Assembly: GCF_004923295.1 (NCBI RefSeq)
Contig: NZ_CP039634.1
Location: 2,384,001-2,448,000, forward strand
Reading direction: 5' to 3'
Length of the DNA stretch: 64,000 bases
Source of the DNA: Azospirillum sp. TSH100
GTDB lineage: Bacteria; Pseudomonadota; Alphaproteobacteria; Azospirillales; Azospirillaceae
In this document: in pieces, positions 26,307 to 35,716 of the stretch
Layout: each line of letters opens with the position of its first letter
Position numbering within the stretch: position 1 is the stretch's first letter
Program-made: the position numbers and the translations under genes
Notes under the pieces: model-generated
Database searches by the model: none
What the model was told of the DNA's origin: nothing
The model's input: the letters and a program-made list of their open reading frames with translations, nothing else

Positions 26307-27110
26307 ATGACGGGGCCGCTATCCCGCCGTACGGTTTTGAGAGCCGCGTTGCCCCTCCTCTGCGCCGTTCCCTTTCTGCCGGCGCGCCCTGCCCCGACTT
26401 ATGCCACTCCGGTCAATGCGAGCGCGGCGGTGGTCAGGGTCGGCGCCTATGAGTTTCCGCCCTATGTCGATGAAACGGGTGGTGGGGTCACCCGTGACCT
26501 GCTGGACCTGCTGAACGGCGCGCAGAGCGAATTCCGGTTCGAGATGGTCAGGACCGCCCCGCAGCGCCGTTACGATGATCTGGAACAGGGGCGGTTCGAC
26601 ATGATCGCCTTCGAGTCTCGCAATTGGGGCTGGCAGGACCTCCCGATCGAAGCCACCCGCCCCTTCCTGCGCGATGCAGAGGTTTTCATCGCCAGGGCGG
26701 CGCCAGGGATCGACCAGCATTATTTCGACGACCTGAGCGGAAAGACGATCCTCGGCCGGCTGGGCTATCACTACGCCTTCGCCGATTTCGATGCCGACCC
26801 CAAGCGGTTGGAGCAACGCTTTCGTACCCGCGTCACCGTGACGCATGAGGGCAATGTCCGCAGCGTGGTCGCCGGCCGGGCCGACCTCGCCATCGTCACC
26901 CGATCCTTCCTCACCCGCTTCCTTCAGCGTGAACCGGAACTGGCACGCCAGATCCTGGTCTCCGACCGGACCGACCAGATTTACGAGCACACCATCCTGA
27001 CCCGGCGCGGCGCGGCGATCACCGCCAGCTGGCTCGAGTCGCTGCTCGACCGGCTGGAGGCGGACGGACAGCTGGAAGCGTTGTGGCGGCGCAGCGGAAT
27101 CCTGTCGTGA
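26307..27110 (+). CDS. Periplasmic solute-binding protein (family 3-like), coupled to SiaA
   Basis: The 267-residue protein begins with a twin-arginine-like signal (SRRTVLRAALPLLCAVPF) and then a type 3 extracellular solute-binding fold. Motifs are VVRVGAYEFPPYVDETGGGV, RRYDDLEQGRFDMIAFES, LSGKTILGRLGYHY and VRSVVAGRADLAIVTRSFL. No transporter genes are adjacent. Its stop overlaps the GTG start of the SiaA-like phosphatase gene by 4 bp. I infer that it is a ligand sensor feeding the periplasmic domain of that phosphatase and not part of an importer. The ribosome site is GAGAGGGG. Confidence 0.85.
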   Translation: MTGPLSRRTVLRAALPLLCAVPFLPARPAPTYATPVNASAAVVRVGAYEFPPYVDETGGGVTRDLLDLLNGAQSEFRFEMVRTAPQRRYDDLEQGRFDMIAFESRNWGWQDLPIEATRPFLRDAEVFIARAAPGIDQHYFDDLSGKTILGRLGYHYAFADFDADPKRLEQRFRTRVTVTHEGNVRSVVAGRADLAIVTRSFLTRFLQREPELARQILVSDRTDQIYEHTILTRRGAAITASWLESLLDRLEADGQLEALWRRSGILS

Positions 27111-28681
27111 AGCGGCGATCCTCGCTGCTGGCGCGGGTGGCCGGTGCCATCCTGCTGACGACGGCCAGCATCGGCACCGCTGCAATGCTGCTGTCGGAGC
27201 ATATCGTGGAGGGACAGCGCCACCAGGATCTGCTGCGGCGGGCCGAACTGGTCGCCGCCACCCAGGCCGACGCGCTGAGTGGTCCGGTGTGGGAGCTGGA
27301 CAACCGCAGCGCCCAACGGATGATCGAGGCGCTGACCGGCCGCGACACTGCCATCCGCTCCATCGCCATTTTCGAGAGCGATCGCGAGGAGCCGCTGGCG
27401 CGGACCACCGCCGGAAAGACCGGGGACGATGCCGATGTGGTGACGGTCGAACGCCCCATCCTGCTGCATGGACGCGAAGGTCGGGTGCAGACGGTCGGCC
27501 ATCTGCGCATCGTCTATTCGACGGCCGAGGTCCGGCAAGCCACGTTGGACGCGCTGATCCCGGTGGCCGGGCTGCTGCTGCTGTCGCTGCTGGGTGCGGT
27601 GGTGGCGCTCGGCCTGACGCTGAACCGCATGGTGCTGCGTCCGTTGCGCCGGCTGACCCAGCTGGCCAGCGCCATGGCGCGCGGCGATTACGGCGCCCGG
27701 ATGGATGCCGGGCGAATCGACGAGATCGGTGTGCTGGCGGACGGCTTCAACCGGATGGCGGCGACGGTGCAGGACCACACCAGCACTCTGGAAAGCCGGG
27801 TGCGCGAGCGGACGGAGGCACTGGCCGCCACCAACCGCGCCATCATGGACAGCATCAACTACGCCCAGTTGATCCAATCCGCCATCCTGCCGTCCGCCGA
27901 CGCGCTGTCGGCCGGACTGACTGAGCATTTCGTGTTGTGGCGGCCGCGCGATGTGGTCAGCGGCGACTTCTATCTCTGCCGCGAGGTGGCGGATGGCTTC
28001 GTCGTTGCGGTGGCCGACTGCACCGGCCACGGCGTGCCCGGCGCCTTCATGACGATGACCGCCAGTGCCATTCTGAACAATGTTCTGGACCAGCTGGGCG
28101 CCGAAGATCCGGCCGCAGTGCTGGCCGCCGTCGATCGCAAGGTGCGCGCCGCCCTGCATCAGGAGGAGGGGGCGCGCAGCGGAACCGACTGTTTCGACAA
28201 CGGGCTGGATCTCGGGCTGTGTCACATCCGCCCGGCCAAGGGAAAACTGGTCTTCGCCGGCGCCCGCATCCCGCTGCTGATCGTCACCGACGGTGGCGTG
28301 ACGGAGTTGCGGGGCGACCGCCGCAGCCTGGGTTATCGCCCCATTGCGCTGGACTCCGCCGGAAATGGCGCCGAGCCATCTTTCACCAATCATCTCGTCG
28401 CTCTGCGGGCCGATCAGACCTTCCTGATGGGCACCGATGGGCTGGTGGACCAGAATGGCGGGGAACGCGGGCGCAGTTTCGGCCGGATCAGATTGCGTGA
28501 CTTGCTGAGCCGGGGCGGCGACGGTCCGCTCGACCGGCTGAGGACCGCTCTGGAACACTCGCTGGACCAGTTCCAGGGCGGTCGGGAACAGCGTGACGAC
28601 ATCACGTTGTTCGGCTTCCGCGTGCGGCTGACGGACGCAGTCGCCATCCCCGATGCAGGGTCCGGCCGCCGCGCCGCGTAA
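27107..28681 (+). CDS. SiaA-like membrane PP2C-type protein phosphatase
   Basis: The 524-residue sensor phosphatase has TM1 (about 9-27) and a periplasmic domain of about 120 residues. TM2 (about 149-172) and HAMP (about 173-228) follow, then a short coiled coil and a SpoIIE/PP2C domain (about 258-510). Metal-binding motifs are VVSGDFYLC and AVADCTGHGVPGAFMTMTAS, followed by GTDGLVDQNGG and REQRDDITLFGF. In Pseudomonas, SiaA dephosphorylates SiaC. The SiaB- and SiaC-like genes on the facing strand (30675-31756) make the same role likely here. The start is GTG 27107, overlapping the upstream stop (GTGA), so translation is coupled. Confidence 0.88.
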   Translation: MKRRSSLLARVAGAILLTTASIGTAAMLLSEHIVEGQRHQDLLRRAELVAATQADALSGPVWELDNRSAQRMIEALTGRDTAIRSIAIFESDREEPLARTTAGKTGDDADVVTVERPILLHGREGRVQTVGHLRIVYSTAEVRQATLDALIPVAGLLLLSLLGAVVALGLTLNRMVLRPLRRLTQLASAMARGDYGARMDAGRIDEIGVLADGFNRMAATVQDHTSTLESRVRERTEALAATNRAIMDSINYAQLIQSAILPSADALSAGLTEHFVLWRPRDVVSGDFYLCREVADGFVVAVADCTGHGVPGAFMTMTASAILNNVLDQLGAEDPAAVLAAVDRKVRAALHQEEGARSGTDCFDNGLDLGLCHIRPAKGKLVFAGARIPLLIVTDGGVTELRGDRRSLGYRPIALDSAGNGAEPSFTNHLVALRADQTFLMGTDGLVDQNGGERGRSFGRIRLRDLLSRGGDGPLDRLRTALEHSLDQFQGGREQRDDITLFGFRVRLTDAVAIPDAGSGRRAA

Positions 28682-28709
28682 AATCCCTGGACCGCAACGC
28701 GAATCTGTT

Positions 28710-28743
28710 ACAGAGATGTCACTTATTGTGACGGGTTGTGACG
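28710..28743 (+). promoter_or_regulatory. Repeat-rich candidate operator upstream of the OmpR-type regulator gene
   Basis: Two TTGTGACG direct repeats (28726-28733 and 28736-28743) are spaced by exactly 10 bp, the usual layout of OmpR/PhoB-type sites. The first also forms the palindrome GTCAC-N5-GTGAC with 28718-28722. The site is about 100 bp before the ATG at 28845, and autoregulation is plausible. Confidence 0.45.
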
Positions 28744-28844
28744 CAGGGGTATCCTGGGTTCTGGTTACTACTCAAGTTTGATTTAAAATTTACACATTCT
28801 GGGGTATGTTGCACCCGCTGGAGTGGTGATAGGGAGAGCACGGC

Positions 28845-29606
28845 ATGGCCGGTCCGACGATCGTCGTGGTCGAAGATGAGAATTCCTTGCGGACCGACAT
28901 GGTCGAGTATCTGTCGAGCTGCGGATTCGATGCCATCGGTGCACGCGACGGGACGGAACTGGACGGGCTTCTGCAAACCCGCACCGCCGCCATCGTGATT
29001 CTGGACGTCAACCTGCCGGACGAGGATGGGTTCAAGATCGCGGCGAGGCTGCGCGACGGCCATGGCGCAGGCATCATCATGGTCACCGCCCGCAGTTCCA
29101 CCGTCGATCGCGTCGTCGGGTTGGAGATCGGTGCCGATGCCTATCTGGTGAAACCGGTCGAGCTGCGTGAACTGGAAGCGCAGGTGAAGTCGCTGCTGCG
29201 CCGCCTGAGCGAACGCGCCGCCGAATCGGCCGCCCAGTCCGCCAACGGTCACGCGCCCATCGATGCCGCCGGAGATGGGATGGACGAGGCCCGCTGGTCG
29301 CTGGACCCCACGGAATGGAGCCTGACCAATCCCGCCGGCATCCGCATCAACCTGACAAGCATGGAAATGAAGCTGACCAGCCTGCTGGCCGCACAGGCCC
29401 GCAAGCCGGCAACCCGCGACCAGATTTCCCAGGCGCTGTACAATCGCCGCTGGAACCCGGAAGACCGCTCCATCGACACGGTCGTCGGGCGCCTGCGCCA
29501 CAAGGTTGAAGGCGCCATCGGCGGTCCTGCACCGCTGAAGTCGGTGCATGGCGTCGGCTATGTCTTCTCCGCCCCGATCCGGGTGGTCGGCGCCACCCAC
29601 GGGTGA
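28845..29606 (+). CDS. OmpR-family response regulator
   Basis: The 253-residue regulator has an N-terminal receiver domain (acidic pair E10/D11, phospho-acceptor D54 in VILDVNLPDEDG, conserved Lys in AYLVKPVEL). An Ala-rich linker (about 120-145) follows, then a winged-helix domain (SIDTVVGRLRHKVEG, SVHGVGYVFSAP). It is the only DNA-binding output in the signalling island. The adjacent orphan kinases (29629-30678, 31766-33535, 34022-35716) are possible partners. It has its own upstream region after siaA and converges on the kinase gene, with 22 bp between the stops. Confidence 0.94.
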   Translation: MAGPTIVVVEDENSLRTDMVEYLSSCGFDAIGARDGTELDGLLQTRTAAIVILDVNLPDEDGFKIAARLRDGHGAGIIMVTARSSTVDRVVGLEIGADAYLVKPVELRELEAQVKSLLRRLSERAAESAAQSANGHAPIDAAGDGMDEARWSLDPTEWSLTNPAGIRINLTSMEMKLTSLLAAQARKPATRDQISQALYNRRWNPEDRSIDTVVGRLRHKVEGAIGGPAPLKSVHGVGYVFSAPIRVVGATHG

Positions 29607-29628
29607 ACCGGTCCCATGGCGCCACGTC

Positions 29629-30678
29629 CTATATCGCCAGGTCCTCGACCGACAGCTCGCGGTCTGGCGTGCGGCGCGGGAAAAGCAGGGTGAAGCAGGT
29701 GCCTCGTTCCGGCGCACTGTCCACGGTGATCGAGCCCGTCAGTGCGCCCACCACCAGATTGTGGACGATGTGCAGCCCAAGCCCGCTGCCGCCACGCCCT
29801 CGCCGCGTGGTGAAGAAGGGCTCGAACACCCGGGCTCGGTGCTCCTCGCTCATGCCGAGACCATTGTCGGTGAAGCGCAGGCGGACGGTGTCGGCATCAG
29901 GGCAATCGACGGTGATCGCCATGTCCCCTGCCCTGCCGTCCGCGAACGCATGCGTCAGAGCGTTCATCACCAGATTCGACAGGATCTGCGACAGCACGCC
30001 GGGATAGCTGTCCAGCTCCAGATCGGCGGGGCAGTTGACCGCCACCGCATGGCCGGAAGGGCGCAGCTTCGGTTGCAGGCTGACCAGCGTGTCCTGAATG
30101 TATGCGGCAAGATTGACGGTGCGCCGCACGGCGCTGGCACGGTCGACCGCCACCTGCTTGAAGCCGGCGATCAGTTGCGCCGCCCGCTCGCAATTGCCGA
30201 GGATCAGGTCGGTGGTGTCGACCGCGGTGGTCAGATAGCGTGCGAACTCCGCCTTGCTCAGTTCCCCGCCAGCGGCGCGGCGGCGCATCGCCTGGGTGGC
30301 GTCAGCCAGATGCGAGGCGCAGGAAACGGCGATGCCGACCGGCGTGTTGATTTCGTGGGCGACACCGGCGACCAGCCCACCGAGAGAGGCCAGCTTTTCC
30401 GACTGTACCATCGCCTCCTGCGCCTCGCGCAGCCGGTCCAACGCCGCCTCCGCCTCGCTGCGCCGGCGTTCCAGCTCATGGTTCGCATCGCTCAGTTGAG
30501 CCTGCAACCGGTCGCTGACCCGCACAAGGCGCTGCTGTTCCCGTGTGCTGAGTTCAAAGGCGGCGATCAGTTCGCGGAATTCTTCCAGGCAATCCGGCGC
30601 AAGCGCGCCAAGCCTCTTCTCCAGCGCGCGGGCCTTGGCAAGAGCCTCTTCCTCCGCGGCGAAGAGGTTGAAGCTCAT
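29629..30678 (-). CDS. Soluble sensor histidine kinase linked to SiaBC
   Basis: The 349-residue protein has no membrane segment. Residues 1-95 form a Glu/Ala-rich coiled coil, followed by a HisKA-like H-box (GGLVAGVAHEINTPVG, H108) and an HATPase domain (NLVMNALTHAFADG, FTDNGLGM, GSGLGLHIVHNLVVG). Its ATG overlaps the SiaC-like stop by 4 bp (ATGA), so it is made together with SiaC. I infer that the phospho-state of SiaC controls this kinase, taking the place of the diguanylate cyclase SiaD in Pseudomonas. It converges on the OmpR-type regulator gene. Confidence 0.9.
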   Translation of the reverse strand: MSFNLFAAEEEALAKARALEKRLGALAPDCLEEFRELIAAFELSTREQQRLVRVSDRLQAQLSDANHELERRRSEAEAALDRLREAQEAMVQSEKLASLGGLVAGVAHEINTPVGIAVSCASHLADATQAMRRRAAGGELSKAEFARYLTTAVDTTDLILGNCERAAQLIAGFKQVAVDRASAVRRTVNLAAYIQDTLVSLQPKLRPSGHAVAVNCPADLELDSYPGVLSQILSNLVMNALTHAFADGRAGDMAITVDCPDADTVRLRFTDNGLGMSEEHRARVFEPFFTTRRGRGGSGLGLHIVHNLVVGALTGSITVDSAPERGTCFTLLFPRRTPDRELSVEDLAI

Positions 30679-31100
30679 GGGGCGCCGTCGGCGGGCATCT
30701 CCCGCATCCGGAAGACGACATGACGCAGATCCTCCGCGAAGTCATCGCCCAGTTCGCGCATGGAGTCGTCGTTCTCCTCGACACACCAGGTCAGCGTCAC
30801 GGGCCGACCGCCCCTCGCCACCGTCTCCAGCATCTGGAAGATGTTCATCAGGGCCTTGGCGCTGGAGCTGTTGAAGTAGAGAAGTTCCATATCGAAACGA
30901 ATCGGCCCGCCATCGGGACGGTCGAGGAAAGCGCGCAGCGCCTCGAACACCGGACCGAAGAAACCGGCGACGTCGTCGGGATAGGATTCGCCGGTCATGC
31001 GTAAATGGCCGCCGGCGAAGTCGAACGACACGCCCGGCGTGCGTCCGGTGGCGGGAATGATCAGGCTGTCCATGGCGTATCGCTCGGTTCGGCCGCTCAT
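30675..31100 (-). CDS. SiaC-family (DUF1987) regulatory phosphoprotein
   Basis: The 141-residue protein has the SiaC/DUF1987 pattern: FDFAGGHLRMTGESYPDDVAGFF early, then IRFDMELLYFNSSSAKALMN, and LTWCVEENDDSMRELGDDFAE late. In Pseudomonas SiaC the phosphorylated residue is a Thr in the NTSS-type motif. Here the motif is NSSSAK (residues 77-82), so a Ser would be the acceptor. SiaC is phosphorylated by SiaB and dephosphorylated by SiaA, and its free form binds a partner. ATG 31100 overlaps the SiaB stop by 4 bp; an internal ATG at 31073 is also possible. Its stop overlaps the kinase start. Confidence 0.87.
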   Translation of the reverse strand: MSGRTERYAMDSLIIPATGRTPGVSFDFAGGHLRMTGESYPDDVAGFFGPVFEALRAFLDRPDGGPIRFDMELLYFNSSSAKALMNIFQMLETVARGGRPVTLTWCVEENDDSMRELGDDFAEDLRHVVFRMREMPADGAP

Positions 31101-31756
31101 ACGCGGACCTTCAGACAGAAGAAGCTGCGGTCGGCGTCCATCGCGTTGAAATCGTAATCGATGGGATCGCTGGCCCGCCGGGCGATCTCGATCAGCCCCA
31201 GGGTCGCGCCGCGGCTGCCGTCGTCGGGATCCTCCCGAAGCTGCTCACGGTAGTAGGTCTTGATGCCGTCGCGATCCAGGCTCTTCAGATGGTCCAACCG
31301 CTCCTTCAGGCGGGGGACCTCGCTGTTGCGCACGGTGTTGCCGCAGACGATGAAGACCTTGCCGCGCTCCATGCCGATGGTGACCATGCCAGCGCTGAGT
31401 TCCACCGCACGGCCGGCGGTGCCCGACATCTTTTCCGCCGAATAGCGGATGATGTTCTGCATCTGCTCGACAAAAACCGAAAAGACGCGGCGGATGGTGG
31501 GGCCGTCGGCCGCTTCCAAGGCCATCTTTTCGCGCAGAGCCTCGCCCAGGGAATAAAGTATCCCTTCCGACAAGTATCCGCTGAATGAGAACACGATCCC
31601 CTTTTCGTCGAGATCGCGCTTAATCGACGCATACTGCTGGGCAAGCATGATTGCGGCCTGACGTTCCACCGATACCCGAGTTGCGCCGACTATGTCACTT
31701 CCTATGCCAAAGGGCCATAGACTTTCAGGCAGGAGGCTTCCGGGCGGCCGCGTCAT
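31097..31756 (-). CDS. SiaB-family protein kinase (GHKL-like)
   Basis: The 219-residue protein resembles SiaB (DUF6272), an anti-sigma-factor-like GHKL kinase that phosphorylates SiaC. The N-box is EQMQN (97-101) in VFVEQMQNIIRYSAEK. The glycine segment is GSRGATLGLIEIARRAS, close to the family pattern of ATP-lid and G-box. The first 36 residues look unlike the family, and no ribosome site precedes ATG 31756, so M37 (31648) could be the true start. It follows the hybrid kinase gene by 9 bp and overlaps the SiaC-like gene by 4 bp. Confidence 0.85.
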   Translation of the reverse strand: MTRPPGSLLPESLWPFGIGSDIVGATRVSVERQAAIMLAQQYASIKRDLDEKGIVFSFSGYLSEGILYSLGEALREKMALEAADGPTIRRVFSVFVEQMQNIIRYSAEKMSGTAGRAVELSAGMVTIGMERGKVFIVCGNTVRNSEVPRLKERLDHLKSLDRDGIKTYYREQLREDPDDGSRGATLGLIEIARRASDPIDYDFNAMDADRSFFCLKVRV

Positions 31757-31765
31757 TGCGCTGCA

Positions 31766-33535
31766 TCATACCGGCAGCACGACCCGGAAGGTCGATCCCC
31801 GGCCAAGCGTGCTGTCGACAGCCACGGCGCCGCCATGCAGCAGGACGATCTGCTGAACGGTGTGCAGCCCGATTCCCGTCCCCGGCACGCCGGAAGCGCC
31901 CGATCCGCGGAAGAAGCGGTCGAACAGGCGCGGAAGCTCCGATTCGGGAATGCCACGGCCGTGGTCGGTGACCTCGATCACCGCCATGGCGCCGTCGGTG
32001 TGGCCATCCAGGGCGATCGGACCGCCCGGTCCGGAATATTTGACGGCATTGTTGACCAGATTGCTGATCACCAGCCCGATCAGGTTCGCGTCGATTTCCG
32101 CCCGCTGCGGCAGCCCGTCCAGAGTCAGGCGGAATTCACGGTCGGGATAGGCGACGCGGAACGGCTGTACGACGCTGCGGATCATCTCCGGCAGATCGAT
32201 CTCGGCCCGTTCAAGGACGAGGGCATTGCTCTGCAACCGCTCGTCAGTGAGATGGGAATCAATCAGGCCGGTCAGGCGCTGCACGCTGCCGCGGATAACC
32301 GCCAGCCGTTCCAGCATCTCGGGCTCGACCTGCCCCGCCCGCATCGCCAAAAGCTGCGCCGCGCTGTCGATGATGGCGAGCGGCGTGCGGAACTCGTGGC
32401 TGACCATGCCGAGGAACTGGCGCTGCTGGTCACGCGCCAGAAGCTCGCTCTCCAATGCCCGTTCGACCCGCTCCTTTGCCAGGATCAGCGCCTTCTGGTT
32501 GGCGGCCAACTCGACCGTGCGGTCCTCCACCCGCTGTTCAAGCGAGCGGTTCAGCGCCATCAGCTCCTCATAGAGGCAGACATTGTCGAAGCCGATGGCG
32601 ACACGGTTGCAGAACAGTTCCAACAGGCGCTGCTCGTCGGCCGCATAGGGCTCCGCCCGCTCAAGCCGGAAAATGGTGACGCCATGTTCGCGTGTGCGGA
32701 AAACCAGCACACAGCGGTCGTCATGGTAAAGATTGCGCTGGGTGGCCAGGGCATCGACCACCTCAGCAACCGCCGTGGCGGGCAGCACGTCGCCGACCGG
32801 CAAGCCGATGCTGCGGGCGAACGGACCCAGCCCGGCGACGAGTTCGACGGAGACACCGCCATCGGCCCGGGCGACCGGCCGGCAGGCCAGCACCGCCGGC
32901 GCACCGCCATGATCGACGACCTGGGCGATCTGCTCAGCCAGCCGTTCGACGAAGCTGCGCATCGGCCGCATCTCGAACAGCGGGGCCGACGCGCTGAGAA
33001 TCCGCTCCAGCCCCTGCCTGTTGCGTTCGATGGTCACGATGTCGCGCCAAGCCCTCAGCGCGCTGACCAGAGTGGTGAACAGGCGCTGGGCGGTCAGCTC
33101 GCTCTTGGCCTTGTAGTCGTTGATGTCGTAGCCGACGATGACGTCCCGTTCCGGCGCCTGCCCGGGCTGGCCGGTGCGCAGGATGATGCGCATGCGGTGG
33201 TTGCCCAAGTCCTCCCGGATATGGCGGACCAGCTTCAGGCCCGCATCCTCAGTCTCCATCACCACGTCGAGCAGAGCCACCGGCAGGTCCGCCCGCCGCG
33301 CGAGGACCGCCTTGGCCTCCTCGGCCGACAGGGCGCTCACCACTTCGAACGGTCGTCCGTCAAAGTCGAAATCACGCAGAAGCACCGCGGTCATGGCATG
33401 GACCTGGGGATCGTCGTCCACCACCAGGACAGGCCAGGGCGTTCCCGACGGCCTGCCGGGCATTGGCGCGATCACCGTGCCGTCCTCCGGGCCGAACAGA
33501 AGTTCGTCGTCCAGCCCCCCGTCCATCCCCATCAT
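31766..33535 (-). CDS. Receiver-DUF3369-histidine kinase hybrid
   Basis: This soluble 589-residue protein heads the four-gene operon. Its receiver domain (about 34-155) has the acidic pocket D40-D42, phospho-acceptor D90 and a Lys in YKAKSEL. A GAF-like DUF3369 domain (about 165-330) and a coiled coil follow. The HisKA H-box is QFLGMVSHEFRTPLAI, and the HATPase domain has NLVNNAVKYSG, VTDHGRGIP and GTGIGLHTVQQIV. It can both receive a phosphoryl group and signal onward. The cognate partners are not known. It starts at the ATG pair 33535/33532. Confidence 0.92.
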   Translation of the reverse strand: MMGMDGGLDDELLFGPEDGTVIAPMPGRPSGTPWPVLVVDDDPQVHAMTAVLLRDFDFDGRPFEVVSALSAEEAKAVLARRADLPVALLDVVMETEDAGLKLVRHIREDLGNHRMRIILRTGQPGQAPERDVIVGYDINDYKAKSELTAQRLFTTLVSALRAWRDIVTIERNRQGLERILSASAPLFEMRPMRSFVERLAEQIAQVVDHGGAPAVLACRPVARADGGVSVELVAGLGPFARSIGLPVGDVLPATAVAEVVDALATQRNLYHDDRCVLVFRTREHGVTIFRLERAEPYAADEQRLLELFCNRVAIGFDNVCLYEELMALNRSLEQRVEDRTVELAANQKALILAKERVERALESELLARDQQRQFLGMVSHEFRTPLAIIDSAAQLLAMRAGQVEPEMLERLAVIRGSVQRLTGLIDSHLTDERLQSNALVLERAEIDLPEMIRSVVQPFRVAYPDREFRLTLDGLPQRAEIDANLIGLVISNLVNNAVKYSGPGGPIALDGHTDGAMAVIEVTDHGRGIPESELPRLFDRFFRGSGASGVPGTGIGLHTVQQIVLLHGGAVAVDSTLGRGSTFRVVLPV

Positions 33536-34021: not shown

Positions 34022-35716
34022 ATGACCCCTGCCGGCTTCGAACAGGATACACATGCCTCGGAAAGCCGGAACACTGGGCGGGGCGGACGCAAGGCGGCGT
34101 CGCTGGCGGTCGCTGCGCTGTTGGCGGTGGCTTTGGGCCTCACCGCAGCCCTGCTCGTGTTCTCGGGCTATCAGTACCGGGCCCAGGTGATTGCCGAGGC
34201 GGAGAACCGCAGCATCGCCATTGCCCGCGTCCTGGAAGAACATGCGGCCAAGACTCTGGGGATCCATGCCGCCACCCTGTCGCACATGGAATGGATGGTG
34301 GACGATTTGGGCTGGGAGCGGATCGACGACTCCCCCCTTCTGTACGAGCGGTTGAAAGCAATGGCGTCACAGACGCCGGAGGTTCAGTCCTACTGGATCA
34401 CCGACGAGACCGGACGGGTGCGCGCCAGCAGTTACGAGTGGCCGATGCGTCCGCTGAACGCTGCCGACCGCGAGTATTTCCGCGCCCATCTGAATCCAGA
34501 CGCCACGATCCATATCGGCCCGAGGCTGAGCGGAAAGATCGTGTCCGATCTTTTCTTCACCCTCAGCCGCCGGATGGAACTGCCCGACCGGCGGTTCCAG
34601 GGAGTTGCGCAGATCTCCCTGCTTCCCAGCTATTTCGCCGACTTCTATCGTTCGGTCCTGCATGGGTCGCAGGATGTGATCCTGCTGATGCGTGAGGATG
34701 GCGAGGTTCTGGTCCGCAATCCGCTGAACGCGCCGGATGATCACGCCGACATCGGTCGCTTTCCGGAATTGATCTCCACACCCGACAAGGGCGGCGTCTT
34801 CCACGCGGTGACACCGTTCGACGGCGTCGAGCGTGTGCTGGCCCGGCGCAAGGTGCCGGACCTGCCGGTCTATGTCGTCTACGGCACGGACGTCGCTTCA
34901 ATCGAGACCGCTTGGCGCGACCGGGTGCTGCCTTATGTCCTGACCGCGGTTCCGGCGCTGGGCCTGCTCTGCCTGCTGGGCGGCATCGCGCTGCGCCGGT
35001 CGCGGCAGGCGGCAGACGCGCAGGATGCATTGCGCCGCGCCAACGAGGAGTTGGAGGACCGCATCGCCGACCGCACACGCCACCTCGACCAGGCGCTCGC
35101 CGACAAGGAAGTGCTGCTGCGCGACATCCATCACCGGGTGAAGAACAACCTGCAGGTCATCCTCAGCCTTCTGGAACTGCAGGCACAGCGCGCGCCGGAG
35201 CTGGAAGCGCCGTTCAGCGAGGCGCTGACCCGCATCAACACCATGGGGCTGATCCACGAGCAGATTTACCGCTCCACCGGCGTGTCGGCGGTCCGGCTGG
35301 ACAATTTCGTCGAGGCGCTGGCCGGACACCTCAACAGCTTCCACAGCCGCCCCGGACGGACAATCGCGATCAGGCACAGCGTTGAACCGCTCAGCCTCGA
35401 CCTGAACCGGGTGGTACCCTTCGCGCTGATCCTCAACGAGGTGGTGTCGAACGCCTACAAGCATGCTTTCACGGGCCGCTGTACGGGCACCATCGACATC
35501 GCGCTGAAGGCGGAGAACAGCTCCCTGCACCTGACCATCCAGGATGACGGAACCGGTGCCCCGGAACCGGAGCATGCCTGCACGCCGGGTCGGCGGTCGA
35601 TGGGCATGGACCTGATACGGGCCTTTGCCCGGCAGATCCGCGGCGAGTATCACTTCACCAGGGCTGCGGGCACGCGGTTCGACCTTGTCTTCCCGCAGGA
35701 GGGAGACGGAATCTAG
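34022..35716 (+). CDS. Membrane sensor histidine kinase, HisKA_2 type, with periplasmic Cache-like domain
   Basis: The 564-residue protein has TM1 (about 27-49), a periplasmic region of about 250 residues resembling a Cache fold (YWITDETGRVRASSYEWPMR, ADREYFRAHLNPDATIHIGP), and TM2 (about 303-323). A coiled coil follows, then the HisKA_2 H-box (LLRDIHHRVKNNLQVILSLL, His near residue 370) and an HATPase (ILNEVVSNAYKHAF, IQDDGTGAP). HisKA_2 kinases often feed single-domain or PhyR-type regulators, and no such partner is adjacent. It lies next to the Sia island and may or may not belong to it. No clear ribosome site precedes ATG 34022. Confidence 0.9.
   Translation: MTPAGFEQDTHASESRNTGRGGRKAASLAVAALLAVALGLTAALLVFSGYQYRAQVIAEAENRSIAIARVLEEHAAKTLGIHAATLSHMEWMVDDLGWERIDDSPLLYERLKAMASQTPEVQSYWITDETGRVRASSYEWPMRPLNAADREYFRAHLNPDATIHIGPRLSGKIVSDLFFTLSRRMELPDRRFQGVAQISLLPSYFADFYRSVLHGSQDVILLMREDGEVLVRNPLNAPDDHADIGRFPELISTPDKGGVFHAVTPFDGVERVLARRKVPDLPVYVVYGTDVASIETAWRDRVLPYVLTAVPALGLLCLLGGIALRRSRQAADAQDALRRANEELEDRIADRTRHLDQALADKEVLLRDIHHRVKNNLQVILSLLELQAQRAPELEAPFSEALTRINTMGLIHEQIYRSTGVSAVRLDNFVEALAGHLNSFHSRPGRTIAIRHSVEPLSLDLNRVVPFALILNEVVSNAYKHAFTGRCTGTIDIALKAENSSLHLTIQDDGTGAPEPEHACTPGRRSMGMDLIRAFARQIRGEYHFTRAAGTRFDLVFPQEGDGI

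Follow-up and report, generated by a model that had tools for sequence, protein, structure and literature searches.

A SiaABC-type partner switch with a predicted histidine kinase output in Azospirillum sp. TSH100

Introduction

In the SiaABCD system of Pseudomonas aeruginosa, SiaB is the kinase and SiaA the phosphatase of the SiaABC switch (PMC7647112), and unphosphorylated SiaC binds to the stalk of the GGDEF protein SiaD, giving an active dimer, while phosphorylation of SiaC on Thr68 blocks this binding (PMC8457831). A related set of genes is found between positions 26307 and 33535 of a 64,000-nucleotide stretch of Azospirillum sp. TSH100 (NZ_CP039634.1, 2,384,001 to 2,448,000; referred to as the window throughout) that belongs to a genome of 7.17 Mb in 8 contigs. 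The locus shares with SiaABCD a SiaA-type HAMP-PP2C phosphatase, a SiaB-family kinase, SiaC with a phosphorylatable residue at position 68 of the Pseudomonas protein and an output protein bearing a SiaC-binding stalk motif. The diguanylate cyclase SiaD as output is not found here. Instead of a GGDEF protein, the putative output consists of a histidine kinase (HK), an OmpR-type regulator and a receiver-containing hybrid kinase. Further differences are the location of siaA on the opposite strand, a serine instead of the threonine in SiaC and the presence of a single clear docking motif, SiaD having two.

Two further systems, HptB-HsbR-HsbA-HsbD and BgrSTUWV, resemble this arrangement in that STAS-type switch proteins control diguanylate cyclases; their output is described as a GGDEF protein (PMC8457831), whereas that of the window locus would be a kinase. 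A third design is known from stressosome loci such as those encoding VvD1 of Vibrio vulnificus and MtG of Moorella, where RsbT acts, or is proposed to act, via the RsbU N-terminal domain, a linker domain common to PP2C and GGDEF outputs and, possibly, to histidine kinases as well (PMC12143880, PMC9237108). The Vibrio authors report that they obtained no positive interaction results for RsbT and VvD1. In the RsbT systems the switch protein is the kinase RsbT and the dock is the RsbU N-terminal domain, in contrast to a STAS-like SiaC and a SiaD-type stalk in the window; a general Pfam scan of the nine proteins between 24399 and 35713, which included no dedicated comparison, did not reveal an RsbU N-terminal domain. 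An initial, sequence-only reading of the window had been unaware of any described system wired in this way. This holds for SiaC and a kinase within open PMC text, but the parallel RsbT/RsbU-domain kinase design is in print, and the wiring is therefore better seen as a variant of the SiaABC switch than as categorically new. Open-licence PMC text, to which the search was confined, yielded no account of SiaC with a kinase, nucleotide cyclase or HD-GYP protein as its target.

Results

Predicted SiaC-docking motif on the kinase stalk

The soluble HK encoded immediately behind siaC (29629-30678, minus strand) carries a predicted SiaC-binding motif at amino acids (aa) 44-61 (STREQQRLVRVSDRLQAQ; 30496-30549, minus strand) that aligns with SiaD residues 71-88. 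Because the kinase bears this motif, which had gone unnoticed in the sequence-only reading, the proposal of that reading that free SiaC controls a histidine kinase becomes concrete, and the motif together with its co-occurrence with SiaC lends it strong comparative support. In SiaD, the stalk residues contacting SiaC are R74, K77, V78, R80, I81, S82, D83, R84, Y85, Q86, M88, R90 and D91, with bonds from SiaC Thr68 to S82 and Q86 (PMC8457831). The contact stretch reads LRRLEKVARISDRYQQMMRD in the 7e6g chain and aa 44-66 of the window HK read STREQQRLVRVSDRLQAQLSDAN. Their alignment places K77, V78, R80, I81, S82, D83, R84 and Q86 of SiaD opposite R50, L51, R53, V54, S55, D56, R57 and Q59 of the HK, such that these eight positions and D91 are identical or conservatively replaced. 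Conservation within the kinases is high: among 24 unique HK windows, S82 and R84 are each kept in 22 and D83 and Q86 in all 24. In the stalks of cyclases and HD-GYP proteins, position 86 is often Glu. A 12-row stalk alignment spanning four output classes has S55, D56 and R57 of the HK, i.e. S82, D83 and R84 of SiaD, as its sole (near-)invariant columns. Four of the 115 stalk open reading frames (ORFs) gave no core and were dropped from the motif comparison (two GGDEF and two HD-GYP proteins, all of which read SDR), and some of the GGDEF windows in it are apparently misanchored.

Mean conservation across 33 HKs amounts to 0.897 in the motif (44-61), compared with 0.603 for residues 1-43, 0.748 for 62-95 and 0.960 for the H-box segment (96-118). 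An AlphaFold2 model of the HK based on 33 sequences (mean predicted local distance difference test score 82, predicted template modelling score 0.50) consists of a helix formed by residues 5-26 followed by a single predicted helix, 28-136, that spans both the motif and the phospho-acceptor, His108; residues 91-110 are less confident, with block means of 61 and 65. Searching the N-terminus of the HK against PDB sequences with phmmer returned nothing below an E-value of 0.69. The stalk is too short for a single-sequence search and profiles were therefore used. The hybrid kinase was also considered as stalk carrier, which is not supported, as the stalk profile gave no match in it.

Features on the SiaC side point in the same direction. 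The window protein has Ser78 where P. aeruginosa SiaC has Thr68, and the phospho-acceptor position is occupied by Ser in all 34 SiaC proteins of the HK type. Contacts Y65, N67 and S69 are kept in all of them, Y31 and D114 in 33 of 34, and position 110 is invariably acidic.

Co-occurrence of stalk and SiaC

The distribution of SiaC and stalk was followed in samples of 45 genomes from the genus, 385 from the class and 398 from the phylum. PF09345 exceeded its cut-off in 42, 13 and 66 genomes, respectively, and the stalk profile A1 found matches in 42 (E≤0.01), 14 and 60 (both E≤0.001). SiaC and stalk coincide in 42 genomes of the genus and are both missing from the other three. The class sample contains 13 genomes with both, none with SiaC only, one with the stalk only and 371 with neither (Fisher p 2.6e-23), and the phylum sample 59, seven, one and 331 (p 2.4e-61); these p-values are overstated because related genomes are not independent. 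In the class and phylum runs just the top 14-15 candidates per genome were scored and weak matches may be missed there, while the genus run scored nearly all candidates (e.g. 130 of 158 in G010). A stalk lies no more than 2 kb from every one of the 58 SiaC genes in the genus. Conversely, 76 of 78 stalk matches are linked to SiaC in this way, the other two being a fragment at a contig end (G030) and a weak match (G010, E 0.0046). As A1 was built on SiaC-linked proteins, presence beside SiaC is partly built in, and what is informative is the near absence of the stalk elsewhere.

Of the 42 SiaC-bearing genus genomes, 22 have a single SiaC with a single linked stalk, which resides on the HK in all 22 (15 from mapped loci and seven from a classification of the stalk protein). 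If G030 is set aside for its additional stalk fragment, the HK carries the sole stalk found in 21 genomes, and consequently these single-SiaC genomes show no GGDEF protein with a stalk at any other place. A GGDEF partner encoded away from siaC, an outcome that would have spoken against the initial proposal, is thus not apparent there.

Gene neighbourhood of the kinase

The first reading had suggested looking at whether the kinase always follows siaC. Among the 42 mapped loci of the genus, a stalk-kinase adjoins siaC in 41 of 41 cases, and in 45 of the 46 named loci of the HK type its gene follows siaC immediately on the same strand. The lack of conservation that would have counted against a SiaC-kinase relationship was not encountered. 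Loci of the HK type extend to Magnetospirillum, Terasakiella and Telmatospirillum. The one exception, L266, is a side observation in its own right: here (L266:1133-3391) and in L107 (1047-3308), hybrid kinases with a SiaC-type stalk are encoded on the strand opposite to siaC and contain HisKA, HATPase and receiver domains, plus Hpt in L266.

Homologs of the OmpR-type regulator of the window (E≤1e-20) are present in 43 of the 46 HK-type named loci and a protein resembling the N-terminal half of the hybrid kinase in 44; neither was found in any of the 34 loci of the GGDEF or cyclase type. The regulator gene is located downstream on the opposite strand in 26 loci (L202-L227) and upstream on the same strand in 17, most of which have it beside the hybrid gene in the order regulator, hybrid, siaB, siaC, HK. 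DUF3369 is not a constant feature: Pfam detects it in the hybrids of the window and L258, whereas the hybrids of L245 and L253 lack a match and retain receiver, HisKA and HATPase. We presume that the OmpR-type regulator is the output of the kinase. A receiver-GGDEF gene follows the HK gene in six of the 46 loci (L245:6491-7978, L231, L232, L247, L251 and L252; Magnetospirillum relatives). Its receiver resembles that of the hybrid, and the one protein scanned, from L245, has a REC-PAS-GGDEF architecture. In these loci, the kinase may offer a path back to cyclic di-GMP (c-di-GMP).

Output proteins of related sia loci

In the genus, 42 of the 58 SiaC places were mapped, and seven more were classified by their stalk protein alone; outside it, the analysis covered 80 of the 90 places listed, leaving out ten. 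Locus L284 was likewise not used. Similarity to seeds served to assign the output domains, and Pfam was run on ten representatives and nine more proteins. Composite labels such as GGDEF+HK, AC+HK and HDGYP+HK reflect cross-matches of the stalk contained in the HK seed; each was counted under its first name. Within the genus, 30 loci have a stalk-HK alone, 11 a stalk-HK together with a stalk-GGDEF and one a stalk-cyclase. The 80 loci from outside comprise 28 with GGDEF, 19 with HD-GYP, ten with class III cyclase and four with HK outputs, in addition to one that was left unassigned and 18 that gave no stalk match. The 80 named loci, which represent the best 80 of the 521 relatives that an HK-type SiaC retrieved and are hence biased in their proportions, all contain one stalk ORF, borne by an HK in 46, a GGDEF protein in 26 and a cyclase in eight.

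Proteins of about 680 aa with a stalk-GAF-HD-GYP architecture are encoded directly behind SiaC in many phylum loci (e.g. L124:637-2697 and L131:4960-6990), which suggests that SiaC controls an HD-GYP enzyme there. A third Azospirillum variant was observed in L034 (3950-5421) and in L233 from Azospirillum canadense, with SiaA, SiaB and SiaC followed by a stalk-bearing class III nucleotide cyclase. A tree of SiaB+SiaC requires at least 15 changes of output (possible minimum 4; 70-85 in 100 shuffles); for the HK label it requires five, and starred branches force three. The tree was computed quickly under LG+G4 from 166 rows, of which 151 carry a label, and has many long branches; L123 and L134 were labelled HD-GYP by hand, an assignment backed by Pfam for L134 and not for L123.

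The genome of strain TSH100 itself contains a second SiaC/SiaB pair on contig C3, in a locus that includes a SiaD-like GGDEF gene (L003:7935-14542; C3, ~442.4-449.0 kb). SiaA, SiaB, SiaC, a stalk-HK and a SiaD-like stalk-GGDEF are encoded in a row, with an OmpR homolog divergently oriented upstream. SiaD is the top NCBIfam family of the GGDEF protein (235 bits, below the cut-off of 290). The two stalk cores read RKIAKISDRLQ in the HK and TKIAKISDRMQ in the neighbouring GGDEF protein, and a single SiaC seems to serve two different outputs, judging from sequence. All 11 Azospirillum loci of this type have an OmpR homolog upstream, so that stalk-HK and regulator keep company in two paralogous settings.

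Genes of the sia locus in the window

Two sets of genes converge in the window. On the minus strand, starting from 33535, a receiver-DUF3369-HisKA-HATPase hybrid kinase gene (31766-33535) heads a run continued by siaB (31097-31756), siaC (30675-31100) and the HK gene. The gap between hybrid and siaB measures 9 bases, and there is a 4-bp overlap both between siaB and siaC and between siaC and the HK gene, as the initial reading had it. The plus strand encodes a periplasmic substrate-binding protein (26307-27110), the SiaA-like phosphatase (27107-28681) and the OmpR-type regulator (28845-29606), the latter convergent with the HK gene and identified by Pfam and by its homologs in named loci. The predicted identities of all sia proteins at these coordinates were borne out by Pfam, PDB and NCBIfam, and those of the soluble HK, the hybrid and the regulator on the other strand are likewise correct. 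A Pfam scan of the nine proteins between 24399 and 35713 did not find a GGDEF domain, in agreement with the first reading. Just beyond the hybrid gene, a sensor kinase with dCache-like and HisKA_2 domains is encoded on the plus strand (34022-35716).

SiaB (PF19788, DUF6272; 3.1e-44) and SiaC (PF09345; 4.4e-37) both exceed their Pfam cut-offs, and their closest named relative as a pair stems from Azospirillum lipoferum (96% over 311 columns). With NCBIfam, SiaB reached 207 bits for SiaB_fam_kinase (cut-off 85). All three Sia proteins stay below the narrower Pseudomonas equivalog cut-offs, SiaA with 345 bits (700), SiaB with 109 (225) and SiaC with 91 (150). Glu97 and Asn101 of SiaB match Glu61, which is catalytic in SiaB, and Asn65 of the Pseudomonas-type SiaB from L137. 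SiaA, with HAMP and PP2C/SpoIIE domains, has SiaA as its top NCBIfam family and SiaA-PP2C 6k4e as its sole PDB match at E≤1e-10 (E 2.4e-59); the latter match, by way of the PP2C domain, assigns it to the SiaA type.

The HK shows H-, N- and G-boxes (HEINTP, aa 108; NLVMNA, 235; DNGLGM, 271; GSGLGL, 297). Pfam detected HATPase_c (9.1e-26), HisKA not being reached, and histidine kinases predominate among the 50 Foldseek matches listed, in agreement with a DHp-CA (dimerization/histidine phosphotransfer and catalytic) fold. The receiver of the hybrid scores marginally below the Pfam cut-off (28.1 versus 30.2 bits). The stop of the periplasmic binding protein gene (PF12974 above, PF00497 below cut-off) overlaps the start of siaA by 4 bp, and the protein is a possible ligand sensor and input for SiaA. 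Among the 26 top-ranking named loci (L202-L227), 22 contain a homolog; the 11 loci of the C3 type gave no match.

Discussion

We consider it highly probable that the window locus encodes a SiaABC serine-phosphorylation partner switch in which a histidine kinase takes the place of SiaD as output. SiaB would phosphorylate SiaC, presumably on Ser78, and SiaA would remove the phosphate, probably under the control of the periplasmic binding protein. Unphosphorylated SiaC is expected to dock at aa 44-61 of the HK stalk as it does on the stalk of SiaD, and phosphorylation would abolish this binding. Docked SiaC would clamp the stalk dimer and stabilize a parallel coiled coil running into the dimerization and histidine phosphotransfer helix with His108, thereby shifting its register or stability. 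In this way SiaC would set the kinase/phosphatase balance of the HK and hence the phosphorylation of its likely target, the OmpR-type regulator, perhaps also that of the hybrid's receiver. Since SiaC activates SiaD by stabilizing a parallel dimer, we rather expect activation of the HK than inhibition, by analogy and with some reservation. As each HK has one motif, a 2:2 complex would be expected and not the 2:4 complex of SiaD. The proposal is supported at the sequence level by gene content, motif, co-occurrence, conservation and output swaps; the continuous helix is a prediction.

Several observations weigh against this interpretation. Four of the 13 SiaD contacts are changed in the HK (R74 to E, Y85 to L, M88 to Q and R90 to S), the HK has a single clear motif and SiaD two, and Q10, I71, D79 and R103, contacts in P. 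aeruginosa SiaC, correspond to G, A, Q and S in the window protein. A SiaA-like PP2C was not found within the 10 kb loci in 19 of the 46 HK-type named loci; in seven of these 19 genomes that were searched, it is encoded elsewhere in all seven. Co-location of stalk and SiaC is favored by the origin of the profile from SiaC-linked proteins. G103, the stalk-only genome of the class sample, has a stalk-HK (L282:4056-5018) and no SiaC above the cut-off, possibly an orphan or decayed module; its counterpart in the phylum sample, G491, has a weak stalk on an HD-GYP protein. To these are added the seven SiaC-bearing phylum genomes and the 18 of 80 SiaC loci outside the genus that lack a stalk match, in the latter case within the fetched stretch. 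In L134, one of these 18, the gene behind SiaC encodes an HD-GYP protein containing a similar segment that escaped the profile.

Window SiaC might also cross-bind the SiaD-like GGDEF protein of the C3 locus, and this protein, which shows that the genome does encode a stalk-bearing GGDEF, could even be the actual target, with the adjoining kinase as an ordinary neighbor. We regard this as very unlikely given that the window kinase possesses the motif itself and its gene overlaps siaC by 4 bp, that this neighborhood is kept in nearly all HK-type named loci (45 of 46) and that the kinase bears the stalk in each of the 22 genus genomes where a single SiaC is linked to a single stalk. Should the similarity of the stalks be nothing but a generic coiled-coil linker signal, unrelated to SiaC binding, it would be in line with the use of such linkers by many kinds of kinases and cyclases (PMC12143880). 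In profile searches, though, stalk matches are almost confined to genomes with SiaC (with the top 14-15 candidates per genome scored in the class and phylum runs), and within the genus nearly all of them lie beside it, which makes this explanation very improbable.

Phosphorelays that feed partner switches exist, as exemplified by HptB-HsbR-HsbA in P. aeruginosa. With this precedent and a hybrid kinase heading the gene run, it is conceivable that siaB, siaC and the HK gene travel together and regulation runs in reverse, i.e. that HK or hybrid controls SiaB/SiaC and the real target of SiaC is another protein. This would leave unexplained why the HK carries a SiaC-binding motif that tracks SiaC across four output classes, and we deem it very unlikely.

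The reading that we prefer, a SiaC-controlled histidine kinase, is one case of a wider pattern. As far as can be told from the sequences, the predicted SiaC-binding stalk is an exchangeable docking module that enzymes of the GGDEF, class III nucleotide cyclase and HD-GYP kinds next to SiaC carry as well. It appears probable that SiaC generally serves to clamp coiled-coil stalks, whose docking helix is portable and has been placed before at least four kinds of catalytic domains, and that in some Azospirillum strains one SiaC drives an HK and a diguanylate cyclase at once. DUF1987 proteins have been suggested to modulate adjacent proteins (PMC8457831); the docking site and target classes named here for SiaC/DUF1987 go beyond that suggestion. 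Residue-level predictions follow that can be checked with purified proteins. If our interpretation is true, a soluble kinase would be provided with an input in a genus with a high share of predicted soluble kinases (PMC4618731), and SiaABC would be a general input by which serine/threonine phosphorylation feeds into two-component, c-di-GMP and cyclic nucleotide signaling, and not just a c-di-GMP device of Pseudomonas.

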